A DNA stretch of 64,000 bases, taken from NCBI RefSeq assembly GCF_015265455.1, contig NZ_CP054492.1, positions 1,674,001 through 1,738,000 of the forward strand, given 5' to 3'. Position numbers and translations under genes: made by a program. The notes below the pieces were generated by a model. It was not told the DNA's origin and ran no database searches. It was given only the letters and a program-made list of their open reading frames with translations. This DNA comes from Candidatus Sulfurimonas baltica (GTDB lineage Bacteria; Campylobacterota; Campylobacteria; Campylobacterales; Sulfurimonadaceae). This document shows, one piece after another, positions 9,828 to 52,664 of this stretch. Position 1 is the first letter of the stretch, and every line of letters begins with the position of its first letter.

Positions 9828-9904
9828 TGGCGCGGTGGACGAGACTCGAACTCGCGACCCCCTGCGTGACAGGCAGGTATTCTAACCAACTGAACTACCA
9901 CCGC
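9828..9904 (-). tRNA. tRNA-Asp (GTC)
   Basis: Cloverleaf on the minus strand: acceptor GCGGTGG/CCACCGC, anticodon loop with GTC flanked by CCTGC/GCAGG, T-loop TTCGAGT, discriminator G and encoded CCA (plus-strand TGG at 9828-9830). It is the last gene of the operon and is identical to the copy at 10258-10334. Confidence 0.97.
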
Positions 9905-9953
9905 ACCTATAATTAAAAAGAGTGTTTTACAAAAAGTAAAACTTGTCACTAAA

Positions 9954-10029
9954 TGGTGGGCACTACTGGACTCGAACCAGTGACATCTACCTTGTAAGGG
10001 TAGCGCTCTACCAACTGAGCTAAGCGCCC
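9954..10029 (-). tRNA. tRNA-Val (TAC)
   Basis: Minus-strand cloverleaf with acceptor GGGCGCT/AGTGCCC, anticodon stem CTACC/GGTAG around loop CTTACAA (anticodon TAC), TTCGAGT T-loop, discriminator A and encoded CCA. Identical to the copy at 10162-10237. Confidence 0.97.
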
Positions 10030-10056
10030 ATTTATTAACTTTTCTACACCAATTTG

Positions 10057-10132
10057 TGGCGACCCCTAAAGGATTTGAACCTCTGTCCCTACCATGAAGT
10101 GATAGTGTCCTTGGCCACTAGACGAAAGGGTC
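10057..10132 (-). tRNA. tRNA-Glu (TTC)
   Basis: Minus-strand cloverleaf with acceptor GACCCTT/AGGGGTC, anticodon stem CTATC/GGTAG around loop ACTTCAT (anticodon TTC), T-loop TTCAAAT, discriminator G and encoded CCA. It is the only glutamate tRNA in this window. Confidence 0.96.
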
Positions 10133-10161
10133 ACTTTCATAAACAATAAGGTTTACAACTA

Positions 10162-10237
10162 TGGTGGGCACTACTGGACTCGAACCAGTGACATCTACCT
10201 TGTAAGGGTAGCGCTCTACCAACTGAGCTAAGCGCCC
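10162..10237 (-). tRNA. tRNA-Val (TAC), second copy
   Basis: Same sequence and structure as the Val gene at 9954-10029 (anticodon TAC, encoded CCA). Together with the adjacent tRNA-Asp it forms a duplicated Asp-Val unit around tRNA-Glu. Confidence 0.97.
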
Positions 10238-10257
10238 AAATTAAACAGAAAAACTAA

Positions 10258-10334
10258 TGGCGCGGTGGACGAGACTCGAACTCGCGACCCCCTGCGTGAC
10301 AGGCAGGTATTCTAACCAACTGAACTACCACCGC
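10258..10334 (-). tRNA. tRNA-Asp (GTC), second copy
   Basis: Identical to the Asp gene at 9828-9904, including the encoded CCA. It is the second gene of the leftward operon, after tRNA-Lys. Confidence 0.97.
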
Positions 10335-10357
10335 ATATATTATTTTTAAGTTTAAAA

Positions 10358-10433
10358 TGGTGTCCTGTGATGGATTCGAACCATCGGCCACATCATTAAA
10401 AGTGACGTGCTCTACCAGCTGAGCTAACAAGAC
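10358..10433 (-). tRNA. tRNA-Lys (TTT)
   Basis: Minus-strand cloverleaf with acceptor GTCTTGT/ACAGGAC, anticodon loop CTTTTAA (anticodon TTT), TTCGAAT T-loop, discriminator A and encoded CCA. First gene of the operon; its 5' end lies about 29 nt after the -10 box. Confidence 0.97.
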
Positions 10434-37575: not shown

Positions 37576-38544
37576 TTAGAAATCTAAAGGGCTGATGACT
37601 TTACCCTTGTTCATCTCAGAGACTACATGAGTGTATACCATCGTAGTTTCAACGCTTTTATGGCCTAAGAGTTCTTGTATGCTTCGTAAATCAATTCCGG
37701 CTTGCAGTAGATGTGTAGCGTAAGAATGCCTAAAAATATGTGAAGTTACTCGCTTAAAAATATTTGCTTTTTGAGAAGCTACCTTAATATTTCTTCCCAA
37801 TGTTTTAGGATGGATATGATGTCGTCTAAGCGTTTCGCTCCTCGGATCTTTTGAAACGTTTGTCATAGGAAATAAAAATTGCCATTTAGTTTCACTTTTT
37901 GACTGTGGATATTTTTTCTCTAAAGCGTAAGGCATAAAAACAGTTCCATAACCATCAGCTAAGTCTTTCTTATGAATTTCACAAACAGTTTCGATTTGTG
38001 AAAGTAGCCTCTGTTTTAATTTTAATGGCAAAGGAACAGTTCTATCTTTAAGTGATTTACTGTCCCAAATATATACTTTATCAAAGCCTATATCTATATC
38101 TTTAATTCTTAGACTTAAAACTTCACTCATGCGAAGCCCACAACCATACATTAGAGAAACGACAAGATTGTATATACCACCAATATTTTCAACCACTTTC
38201 AATACCTCTTCTTTCGTCAAAACAACAGGAATATGCTTTCTCTCTTGTGCTCTCAATGCTTGGATGTTTTCATGGCTTAAATCAACACCCAAAACTTCTT
38301 TATACAAAAATAAAATAGCAGAAAATGCCTGATTTTGAGTTGTTGGAGAGACTTTTTTTTCAACTGCCAAAGAAGTAAGAAATTGCTCTATTTCTAACTT
38401 TCCCATTTCAATTGGATGCTTTTTATTATGAAAAAATATATAATGTTTTATCCAATGAACATAAGTTCTCTCAGTAGAAATACTGTAATGTTTAAACCTG
38501 ATTTTATCACGGACAATATCTAATAATTTTTTCTTAATCTCCAT
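37576..38544 (-). CDS. intI: Integron integrase IntI
   Basis: Tyrosine recombinase that joins attI and folded single-stranded attC sites. From ATG 38544 (GAGAGG 8 nt upstream; longer starts to 38574 are possible) it has 322 residues. N-terminal SAM-like core-binding domain (about 1-90), then catalytic Arg in CGLRMSEVLSL, Lys-containing beta hairpin, HIFRHSYATHLL (H-x-x-R), LGHKSVETTMVYTHV (His and nucleophilic Tyr). The IntI-only insert is present: ALEKKYPQ, WQFLFP, DPRSETLRRHHIHPKTL. These separate it from XerC/XerD and phage integrases. It is divergent from the cassette array. Confidence 0.95.
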   Translation of the reverse strand: MEIKKKLLDIVRDKIRFKHYSISTERTYVHWIKHYIFFHNKKHPIEMGKLEIEQFLTSLAVEKKVSPTTQNQAFSAILFLYKEVLGVDLSHENIQALRAQERKHIPVVLTKEEVLKVVENIGGIYNLVVSLMYGCGLRMSEVLSLRIKDIDIGFDKVYIWDSKSLKDRTVPLPLKLKQRLLSQIETVCEIHKKDLADGYGTVFMPYALEKKYPQSKSETKWQFLFPMTNVSKDPRSETLRRHHIHPKTLGRNIKVASQKANIFKRVTSHIFRHSYATHLLQAGIDLRSIQELLGHKSVETTMVYTHVVSEMNKGKVISPLDF

Positions 38545-38882
38545 AATTAATACCTCTCGCTTAAGGGACATCATGTCCTTTTAATGGGTTATATGACAAA
38601 TAACGGAACACTTTGTCCAAATAACGGATAATTTCGTGCTAAGTGGACACTCTTTTCATTAAGGATAATAATATAAAAGATAAAAAGATATCAAAAATAT
38701 GACAGTTTGTCATATAATTACTTGAATTTATATTTTGAAGAGGACATTTTTCATGTTCCTTTAATAATTACTATTCAGTGTCTTTGTGTTATAGTGTTCC
38801 TTGAATAAATAGTTGTGTGTACAAATAAACTTTAAATCTAGTTTTGGATAAAATAACAAGATAAATAAACAGAGGTTATTAA
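38545..38882. promoter_or_regulatory. Putative attI and array/intI promoter region
   Basis: A 338-bp gap between divergent intI and the first cassette gene. It holds: a 13-bp palindrome GGACATCATGTCC (38566-38578) beside the intI start; a CAAATAACGGA direct repeat at 38597-38607 and 38618-38628, spaced 21 bp (two helical turns), as IntI-binding direct repeats are in attI1; and ATATGACA-GTT-TGTCATAT (38697-38715) overlapping a TATAAT (38713-38718). GTTAT core-like triplets occur at 38588 and 38876, the latter just before the first ATG. The exact crossover point cannot be read. Confidence 0.6.
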
Positions 38883-49097: not shown

Positions 49098-49158
49098 CAA
49101 AACATAGGAGCTAATAAGTTACCTGCGGCAACTTATTAGCTCTATTAAACCGTTAGTC
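49092..49158 (+). repeat. attC site F
   Basis: TTATAACAAAAC box, GAGCTAATAAGTT with AACTTATTAGCTC, loop ACCTGCGGC, then CCGTTAGTC. GAGC(C/T)AATAA family. It overlaps the stop codon of the nat gene. Confidence 0.9.
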
Positions 49159-49188
49159 TCCAAACATAAATATATTAAAAGGGTGTCC

Positions 49189-50142
49189 ATGAAAAAACAA
49201 GATATTGAGAGTATAGAAGAATTATTAAAAACTTATCTTGAAAATGATATATCAGCTGAAGAAATAGTAAGAAATATAAATTTTAAAATTTTATATGAAG
49301 ATCCTATATTAAAAGGTGAATTAACAACACCATATATAGAAATGCTTTCTGAATATCAAGAGAGTGTTTTTTACGCTTATTTAGCTATTACAGGTAGAGA
49401 AGAAAACTTAGTTTTTTTAACCGATGAAGAGAAAGCAGCATTAAGCCTAAAATTTAAAATTGATGATGGAAGTGATATTATCCAAACAGCTTTTGAAAAG
49501 GTTGACATCTTTAATAATTTATTAAAAGAAGGAGTACAAAAGATGAATGGCACACAAGTAGTACTAGTAGCTCTTATCATCGCTGGTTATCTTTCAGTCG
49601 ATAAACTAGCTGACACATTTGAGAAAATTGAAACAAAAAAAATTGAAGTAACAGTACCTATAGCAAATATAGAAAGAGAAAAAGAACTTTATAGTACTTT
49701 CAAAGATATGCAAAAAAATCTACTTAATAATAAGTTTGATAGAAAAAAACAAGAAGCATTACATAAACCTCTTTATGCATACCCTGACAATACATTGAAA
49801 ACTCAAGAAGAAGTTATCACATCTGAACAAGCAAAAGAACTAAAAATAAAACCTCTAATAGAAACAGAAAACTTAAAGGGACTATATACTGTTGATGGGG
49901 TAAAAGGTGCTAGTGAAAGCCGTGCTTTAACTACGTTTTGGTTAATTAATAAAGCAGGTAAAGATTTTTCAATTCAATTGAAAAATAATGATTTAGACAC
50001 TATGAGAAAGAATTTATTATTTGAAAATATGGGTAAAACAATATATCTTGACTTAGAAATAAAGAGAAAAGATGGAGTAATTAAAAATAAGACAATTAAT
50101 GCAATCTATGATAAAGATTCTAATCCAGAACTATTTATATAA
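49189..50142 (+). CDS. Hypothetical cassette protein with one membrane span (317 aa)
   Basis: From ATG 49189 (a GTG start at 49183 is also possible). A helical, acidic N-terminal domain (about 1-110), one hydrophobic segment (TQVVLVALIIAGYLSV, about 122-137), then a long charged C-terminal domain (about 140-317) with LKGLYTVDGVKGASESRALTTFW. No catalytic motif is evident. The arrangement, a soluble domain on each side of a single span, resembles unknown membrane-effector designs seen in defence islands, but I do not recognise the family. Confidence 0.6.
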   Translation: MKKQDIESIEELLKTYLENDISAEEIVRNINFKILYEDPILKGELTTPYIEMLSEYQESVFYAYLAITGREENLVFLTDEEKAALSLKFKIDDGSDIIQTAFEKVDIFNNLLKEGVQKMNGTQVVLVALIIAGYLSVDKLADTFEKIETKKIEVTVPIANIEREKELYSTFKDMQKNLLNNKFDRKKQEALHKPLYAYPDNTLKTQEEVITSEQAKELKIKPLIETENLKGLYTVDGVKGASESRALTTFWLINKAGKDFSIQLKNNDLDTMRKNLLFENMGKTIYLDLEIKRKDGVIKNKTINAIYDKDSNPELFI

Positions 50143-50150
50143 CTGCACAA

Positions 50151-50219
50151 GACTAACAAAACAGAGTAGCCAATAAATTACCTAGCGGCAATTTATTGGC
50201 TATCTTCAAACGTTGTCTG
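50151..50219 (+). repeat. attC site G
   Basis: GACTAACAAAAC box, GTAGCCAATAAATT paired with AATTTATTGGCTAT, loop ACCTAGCGGC, then AAACGTTGTCT. GAGC(C/T)AATAA family. Its right box merges into the palindrome block that follows. Confidence 0.85.
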
Positions 50220-50371
50220 AACGCTTCGCATTCAGACAACGGGCGCGCGGGTTGAACACCCACTAGTCGCCTGATGCTAAAGCATCAGACAACAAGCGGG
50301 AGGAGCGAGCAACGACATCAGAAAATAAATTTTCAGATGTCGTCGTCACTCACCCGCGCGCCCGTTATATG
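50212..50371. repeat. GC-rich multiply palindromic block, possible ORF-less cassette with an unusual attC
   Basis: Four nested or adjacent arms: GTTGTCTGAA/TTCAGACAAC (50212-50221/50231-50240); a 12-bp long-range pair GGGCGCGCGGGT/ACCCGCGCGCCC (50241-50252/50352-50363); inside it CTGATGC/GCATCAG (50271-50277/50282-50288) and a 15-bp arm 50312-50326/50329-50343 with one mismatch. It ends CCCGTTATATG, like the attC right boxes. No ORF above a few codons. Its GC is far above that of its neighbours. Confidence 0.75.
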
Positions 50372-50382
50372 AAAGGTGAATA

Positions 50383-50730
50383 ATGAATTTTTATTATGTA
50401 TTTACTCCTAAAGGTATTTCAATTGAGCATAGCTGGAGTAAAGTAAAATCAATGATAAATGGAGTTTCTGACTCTGGTTGTCAAAGATTTGATAATAAGC
50501 CAGATATGGAAAGATGGCTAAAATATGTAGAAAAATATTCTACTGAAAGTACAATTAGTATTTTTAAGAGTATGATTAAAGAACAAAAAATAATTGAAGA
50601 AGAAGATAAGAAGAAGCAACTTATTAGTAGAAATGAAATTGAGATTTTTAAAAATCTAATTGAAGAAGAAAAGAAAAAATCTACTTCCAAGAAAGGTTTG
50701 AGAATCGTAAAGAAAATATCAAAAAAGTAA
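50383..50730 (+). CDS. Cassette protein with a viroplasmin-like N-terminus
   Basis: 115 residues. The first about 45 (FYYVFTPKGISIEHSWSKVK, then MINGVSDSGCQRF) loosely match the caulimovirus viroplasmin/RNase H1 N-terminal dsRNA- or RNA:DNA-binding domain (pattern G-I-x-x-S-W-x-x-V-K...N-G). The rest is a highly charged Lys/Glu-rich helix (about 60-115). No RNase H domain follows. The domain call is tentative. AAGGTG precedes the ATG. Confidence 0.45.
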   Translation: MNFYYVFTPKGISIEHSWSKVKSMINGVSDSGCQRFDNKPDMERWLKYVEKYSTESTISIFKSMIKEQKIIEEEDKKKQLISRNEIEIFKNLIEEEKKKSTSKKGLRIVKKISKK

Positions 50731-52122: not shown

Positions 52123-52139
52123 AAATATTGGAGTTTATT

Positions 52140-52373
52140 ATGTTAGCTTTAAAACAAGAACAACTTTTTGACGAGATAGATATTTTACCAATAGATTTGA
52201 AAACTAAAATTGTTGATAAGATATTAGCTAGTATCACGCCTTTAAACAGTGAAATAGATAAACTATGGATAAAAGAAGCCAACAAAAGAAAACAAGAGAT
52301 TGAGTCAAAGTCCATTACATTAGTTGATGGAGATGAAGTTTTCAAAAAAATATCTCAAAGACTCAATTCATAA
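52140..52373 (+). CDS. Antitoxin of a RelE/ParE module (addiction-module component family)
   Basis: 77 residues from ATG 52140 (TTGGAG 7 nt upstream; an in-frame TTG at 52128 would overlap that site). Mostly helical: LFDEIDILPIDLKTKIVDKILASI followed by DKLWIKEANKRKQEIES, a pattern of the PF09720-type antitoxins. It neutralises the next gene's product and probably binds the adjacent palindrome. The stop is immediately followed by the toxin ATG. Confidence 0.8.
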   Translation: MLALKQEQLFDEIDILPIDLKTKIVDKILASITPLNSEIDKLWIKEANKRKQEIESKSITLVDGDEVFKKISQRLNS

Positions 52374-52664
52374 ATGACATACTCTTTCCACCCAGATGCT
52401 GAACTTGAATTAAATGCTTCTGTTGATTATTATCAAGAGTGTAAAGATGGGCTTGGTTCAGAGTTTGCATATGAAGTTCAAAAAACAATCCAAAGAATTT
52501 TAGAATATCCAACCGCTTGGCAAAAGCTAGATAAAGACATAAGAAGATGTTTAACAAATAGATTCCCATTTGGGATAATTTATTTTCAAAAAGATGATGA
52601 AATAATTATTTTAGCTGTGATGCAACTAAACAGAAAACCAAACTACTGGAAAGACAGAAGTTAA
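52374..52664 (+). CDS. RelE/ParE-family toxin
   Basis: 96 residues with the ParE/RelE toxin fold: YSFHPDAELELNASVDYY, LGSEFAYEVQKTIQRILEYP, then RRCLTNRFPFGIIYF and a C-terminal IIILAVMQLNRKPNYW. The C-terminal Arg-rich strand and F-P-x-x-I-I-Y are typical. ParE members inhibit gyrase, RelE members cleave mRNA; the sequence does not decide. Reading frame is intact, so the module looks functional. Confidence 0.85.
   Translation: MTYSFHPDAELELNASVDYYQECKDGLGSEFAYEVQKTIQRILEYPTAWQKLDKDIRRCLTNRFPFGIIYFQKDDEIIILAVMQLNRKPNYWKDRS

Follow-up and report, generated by a model that had tools for sequence, protein, structure and literature searches.

We found that a GC-rich block in a 64,000-nucleotide stretch of the Candidatus Sulfurimonas baltica genome (the window) lies between two crossover points of an integron array and carries no gene. 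We consider it likely that the block is a gene-less integron cassette, moved in trans by the integron integrase IntI and most probably selfish, whose bottom strand would switch between two folds. The element would combine an attC spanning R''2 to R' (50286-50370) with a preceding body (50212-50285), the latter being a hairpin that repeats the R box together with antisense copies of both attC arms. The host IntI, acting on the folded bottom strand, would excise the cassette and insert it at attI or at other attCs, and the cassette, being without a gene, would most likely persist as a minimal hitch-hiker.

Boundaries and fold of the cassette

The block begins at the R' box of an ordinary attC, site G, which the first bases of the element complete, and it terminates in CCCG^TTATATG, so that both the start at a right box and the right-box-like end described in the original prediction were recovered. 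Since it runs from the R' box of one attC to the next G^TT, the sequence places the cassette between two G^TT crossover points, 152 bp apart; the block is thus real over its predicted extent of 50212-50371, whereas the cassette proper is narrower (Table 1). Its GC content is 55%, compared with 29% in the flanks, and no open reading frame of at least 60 aa was found within 50212-50371, in agreement with the predicted GC richness and lack of coding sequence. No reading frame is conserved either, as the homologues range from 149 to 158 bp in one-base steps and most frames of most copies contain stops. In its own genome the element is single copy, with no second copy found.

When folded as DNA, the block is far from chance on both strands, with -58.7 kcal/mol (z -13.9) for the minus strand and -45.8 kcal/mol (z -8.8) for the plus strand; on neither strand did any of 200 dinucleotide shuffles fold as well. 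The minus (bottom) strand, which folds well, forms a 5' hairpin, P0, followed by a three-way junction of P1, P3 and P2 with a short unpaired junction. All the predicted arms are present, namely the perfect 12-bp long-range pair, the near-perfect 15-bp hairpin and the two further hairpins that we term P0 and P3; folding of the single strand was borne out by calculation, while the multi-branched structure proposed for it was corrected to the three-way junction plus one 5' hairpin. The fold is conserved in sequence comparisons, with compensatory changes at 23 of the 52 pairs of the consensus. Shuffling gives p <= 0.00005 for the covariation of R''2 with the R' box of the same cassette, the three R boxes R', R''1 and R''2 co-vary, and R' and R''1 are identical at 7-8 of 8 bases in every element compared. 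Separately, clustered substitutions (AACAAGC to GACCAGT) at two loci, L131 near 15642 and L027 at 2609-2738, convert an imperfect P3 into a near-perfect palindrome. The cluster looks like a template-switch (quasipalindrome) correction, and such a palindrome-making footprint would be expected if P3 formed during replication.

Table 1. Features of the element and of its host integron, in window coordinates
Feature	Position	Strand	Basis or remark
Integron integrase IntI, 332 aa, presumed trans-acting recombinase	37576-38574	-	TIGR02249 integrase_gron, 411 bits, cut-off 265
Pc -10-like sequence and attI (TATAGTGTTCCTTGAATAAATA followed by GTT), array start	38790-38814	+	pattern match, 1 mismatch
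Ordinary attC of the preceding cassette (site G)	50151-50218	-	host attC covariance model, 77.5 bits
Gene-less cassette	50213-50364		sequence; homologues share both end points behind many different attI/attC
5' hairpin P0	50212-50240	-	fold; first cassette bases (R', GTTGTCTG) pair with R''1
R''1 box (CAGACAAC)	50233-50240	-	pairing partner of R' inside P0
Outer stem P1, left arm	50241-50252	-	perfect antisense of the attC R'-side arm; 12-bp perfect pair with the right arm
Unpaired junction TGAAC (bottom GTTCA)	50253-50257	-	near-invariant in the element alignment
Inner hairpin P3	50258-50301	-	fold; 5' arm antisense to the attC R''2/L'' arm
R''2 box (CAGACAAC), further R-box copy	50286-50293	-	within the P3 3' arm
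Extrahelical base (top G, bottom C) beside the L box	50302	-	as in the ordinary attCs of the array
Inner hairpin P2, attC terminal stem-loop	50303-50351	-	fold; L box GAG/CTC at base
Near-perfect 15-bp hairpin	50312-50326/50329-50343
Outer stem P1, right arm, attC spacer and L' side	50352-50363	-	fold
R' box GTTATATG	50364-50371	-	first T onward belongs to the next cassette (ORF 50383-50730)

The integron that hosts the element has a complete and intact IntI. The attI pattern matched at C1:1712790-1712814 of the genome, and a control pattern was found almost nowhere. Ordinary attCs extend from 44.7 to 52.7 kb of the window, with nine strong matches to the covariance model. Among the cassettes are one with an arylamine N-acetyltransferase-like gene (PF00797; 48420-49097) and one with a ParE-like toxin and a likely antitoxin in front (52128-52664). 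A close relative of the gene cassette directly upstream of the element (49150-50150, ORF 49183-50142) occurs in genome G161, immediately after an attI-borne deletion form of the element (L101, 1522-1650). Elsewhere in the window's own genome, we observe a second integron integrase, split and stop-containing (G000:C1:1289399-1290142), and a second attI-like motif (G000:C1:934816-934840), which are probable remains of other integrons. On its minus strand the window also holds six clustered tRNA genes (9828-10433), among which the Val and Asp genes are repeated.

Spread of the family and further types of the same anatomy

Homologues of the element were detected in 10 of 60 relatives, and when about 85,000 species genomes were scanned by pattern, 35 stretches matched, nearly all of them in Campylobacterota. 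A covariance model of 29 elements found matches in 26 of the 299 genomes of the order, spanning 11 genera, and when it was applied to a phylum-wide sample every match fell within the same order. The family is native to the Campylobacterota order of its host, and the origin in another lineage that had been suggested finds no support. Copies in metagenome-assembled genomes (MAGs) named Gracilibacteria and Peptostreptococcaceae probably stem from misbinned contigs and were left out of the cross-phylum spread. BLAST searches of plasmid and phage collections and a pattern scan of viral contigs gave no match.

Across the fetched loci, the element occupies 111 distinct places, spread over Sulfurimonas, Sulfurovum and further Campylobacterota. 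These comprise 57 places behind attC, 31 behind attI, six scored as 'other' (at least four of them attI variants by eye), 12 without the 5' hairpin (some gene-bearing, with the core as attC) and five at contig ends. Of the 94 copies that have the 5' hairpin and are preceded by sufficient sequence, 92 sit behind attI or attC at G^TT, a count that includes four attI variants scored as 'other' by the script. Furthermore, one MAG has identical copies at attI and attC (L029 twice, L039), one Sulfurimonas and one Sulfurovum MAG share an identical 158 bp, and a complete genome carries 12 copies, nine of them identical, that are distributed over two arrays separated by 1.5 Mb and all differ in their flanks. 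Identical copies behind different junctions mark a mobile cassette rather than an intergenic repeat, and they strongly suggest that the cassette has moved in the past. The prediction of an empty cassette is well supported, with both boundaries at IntI crossover points and the element recurring behind many attI and attC sites, and the copies did not turn out to be a common intergenic repeat outside integrons. Deletion forms are also observed (L017 9297, L025 452, L044 5208, L101 1522), in which one or both inner hairpins are lost and the 5' hairpin and outer stem are kept.

The same anatomy, with a 5' hairpin, a long outer stem and two inner hairpins, recurs in at least three further types that are unrelated in sequence to the window's element (type I). 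By BLAST, type II (L081; P1 GGTCGCGCTGAGCAC) was found in 8 of 150 genomes of the order, type III (L045; P1 GGCGAAGCTGAGC) in 31 of 135 genomes of the genus, in some via the 5' hairpin only, and type IV (L105/L113) in 3 of 135 genomes of the genus. A scan of 1.5 Mb on both strands by structure only, requiring a 5' hairpin, a 9-bp outer stem and a GT end, returned 95 places with 72 sequences, compared with none in the reversed control. A tentative, and in our view rather doubtful, idea is that of a new class of integron parasite, comprising several unrelated types, in which a recombination site would carry the antisense of its own arms and ssDNA folding would act as a mobility switch.

Competing folds and alternative explanations

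The bottom-strand pattern of the arrays' ordinary attCs is AACG-N8-GAG ... CTC-C-N6-TTGTT, and the element reads alike from R' to R''2. On the R' side, 9 nt separate the R box from the L box in ordinary attCs and likewise in types II and IV, against 12 nt in type I, with the same extrahelical C, and the motif XYZ-C-N6-TTGTT around this base is common to ordinary attCs and the other element types. The right half of the element (R''2 to R') has the layout of an attC and the left half is antisense to both attC arms. The predicted oversized attC is consequently apt for the right half, and for a few gene-bearing cassettes that use the whole junction, but not for the left half, which is an antisense copy. 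The ordinary-attC covariance model gave 6.0 bits (E 0.16, not significant) for the window's type I element and 22.7-27.1 bits for types II and IV, the latter not reproduced with filters off. Because the host attC model misses it, the block is not filed as an ordinary attC, and elements of this kind may escape attC finders.

Taken with its own R' box, as in a circular cassette, the R''2-R' segment folds into an attC hairpin of -28.2 kcal/mol that shows an 8-bp R box, an unpaired spacer, the L box and the extrahelical base. In this first fold R''2 would pair with R' to give a normal attC hairpin fit for IntI, whereas in the second the perfect antisense copies (P1, P3) would capture both attC arms and produce the three-way junction without an unpaired spacer. 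The attC hairpin and the folded body have about -28.2 and -19.1 kcal/mol, against -58.7 for the three-way junction. The R''2-R' register has the unpaired spacer and the extrahelical base, which the more stable R''1-R' fold lacks. Pairing of the spacer in the Vibrio VCR site cuts recombination 27-fold (Bouvier 2009, PMC2727003), and since the spacer of the three-way junction is fully paired, IntI should use the junction poorly. The body might hence act as a lock, as a cassette held in the locked fold after insertion would limit its own loss.

It may instead be that the whole three-way junction, from R''1 to R', is a very large attC with a branched end, belonging to an empty cassette with no switch or lock. 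We regard this as a serious but somewhat improbable explanation. Branched-end large attCs do exist, VCR among them (PMC2727003), and the gene-bearing cassettes L023 and L027 end in the three-way junction, with a left arm that is normal and unpaired. The 5' end of cassette L023 itself matches R''1 (7/7) and not R''2, so that IntI may act on the junction directly, which speaks against a lock, and in L027 R''2 has lost its AAC. In the gene-less elements, however, the outer stem is fully paired, with neither spacer nor extrahelical base, which costs at least 27-fold in VCR (PMC2727003). R''2 also retains its AAC and shows covariation with R', and measured from R''2 the geometry of types II and IV is exactly that of an attC.

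The position of the copies bears on a regulatory role, in which the cassette would tune read-through from Pc, or its 5' hairpin would occlude the upstream R' and so stabilise the neighbouring cassette. Of the copies whose junction could be classified, about 38% follow attI directly, and a gene-less structured cassette or its deletion form is the first cassette at 7 of the 30 genus attI loci inspected (L101, L104, L105, L113, L120, L122 and L129; the script gave 8 of 31, from which L128, a chance hairpin, and the window's own row were left out). Recent insertion also predicts the first position, though, and over half of the copies sit further inside the arrays, so we consider regulation unlikely as the main explanation, while selection for another function, for example expression control near Pc, may still act.

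The strand bias and the first position bear on a third explanation, that the structure serves an RNA, transcribed from the minus strand, which folds best, or from the plus strand behind Pc. In all 29 full-length elements it is the bottom strand that folds better, with 149 G-T pairs on the bottom strand against 9 on the top. Strong covariation, G-U-type pairs, the frequent first position behind Pc and the known ORF-less cassettes with small RNAs or promoters (PMC8876359, PMC11014356) would all suit an RNA. However, the attC-like sites of the same loci, 80 regex picks that include a few R''2-R' arms of the element, are biased as well (76 of 80 fold better on the bottom strand; 169 G-T pairs against 52), and attC recombination uses the bottom strand only (PMC2727003). 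As ordinary attCs share the bias, selection on bottom-strand ssDNA suffices and no RNA is needed, for which reason a minus-strand RNA was dropped as the first choice. Additionally, an Rfam scan of the element at gathering and permissive thresholds returned no match, no promoter-like site was found inside the element, and the strand that Pc would transcribe is the weaker-folding one in every copy. The RNA role that had been proposed is accordingly quite improbable. Least credible of all is a MITE-like transposable element whose transposase, and not IntI, targets the R boxes of attI and attC, since the inverted repeats, the small size and the multiple identical copies that would fit it stand against insertion at the IntI crossover with no target duplication seen, a left end that pairs, as it would in a circular cassette, with the right end of the attC, and the use of the same core as attC by gene cassettes.

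Relation to known systems

We infer from the junctions that IntI is the moving agent of the preferred gene-less cassette. ORF-less cassettes with promoters or small RNAs have been reported (PMC6557892, PMC11014356, PMC8876359). Those of Treponema (PMC6557892) and Vibrio (PMC11014356) likewise lie between IntI crossover points, lack a gene and can follow attI; they are described with an ordinary attC and promoter-active sequence, whereas the present element is nearly all attC and attC antisense, has no promoter match and belongs to a family that is diverse in sequence and conserved in structure. The Vibrio VCR shares the bottom-strand fold, the R and L boxes and the branched end, but the element differs in the fully paired outer stem of its long-range fold, the further R''/L'' arm and the antisense of both arms. 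Similarly to MITEs and other non-autonomous hitch-hikers, the element is small, non-coding, palindromic, multi-copy and presumably moved in trans, and unlike MITEs its recombinase would be the integron integrase, with the examined copies at attI/attC crossover points. In the open-access literature, whose silence is weak as evidence of absence, we found neither gene-less cassettes of attC plus antisense nor Campylobacterota integron cassettes of this kind described.

Gene-less cassettes are already known and poorly explained. The existence of a widespread, multi-copy family that contains nothing beyond a recombination site and the antisense of that site suggests that integrons have selfish cassettes among their own, and also that competition between ssDNA folds can regulate the mobility of cassettes.
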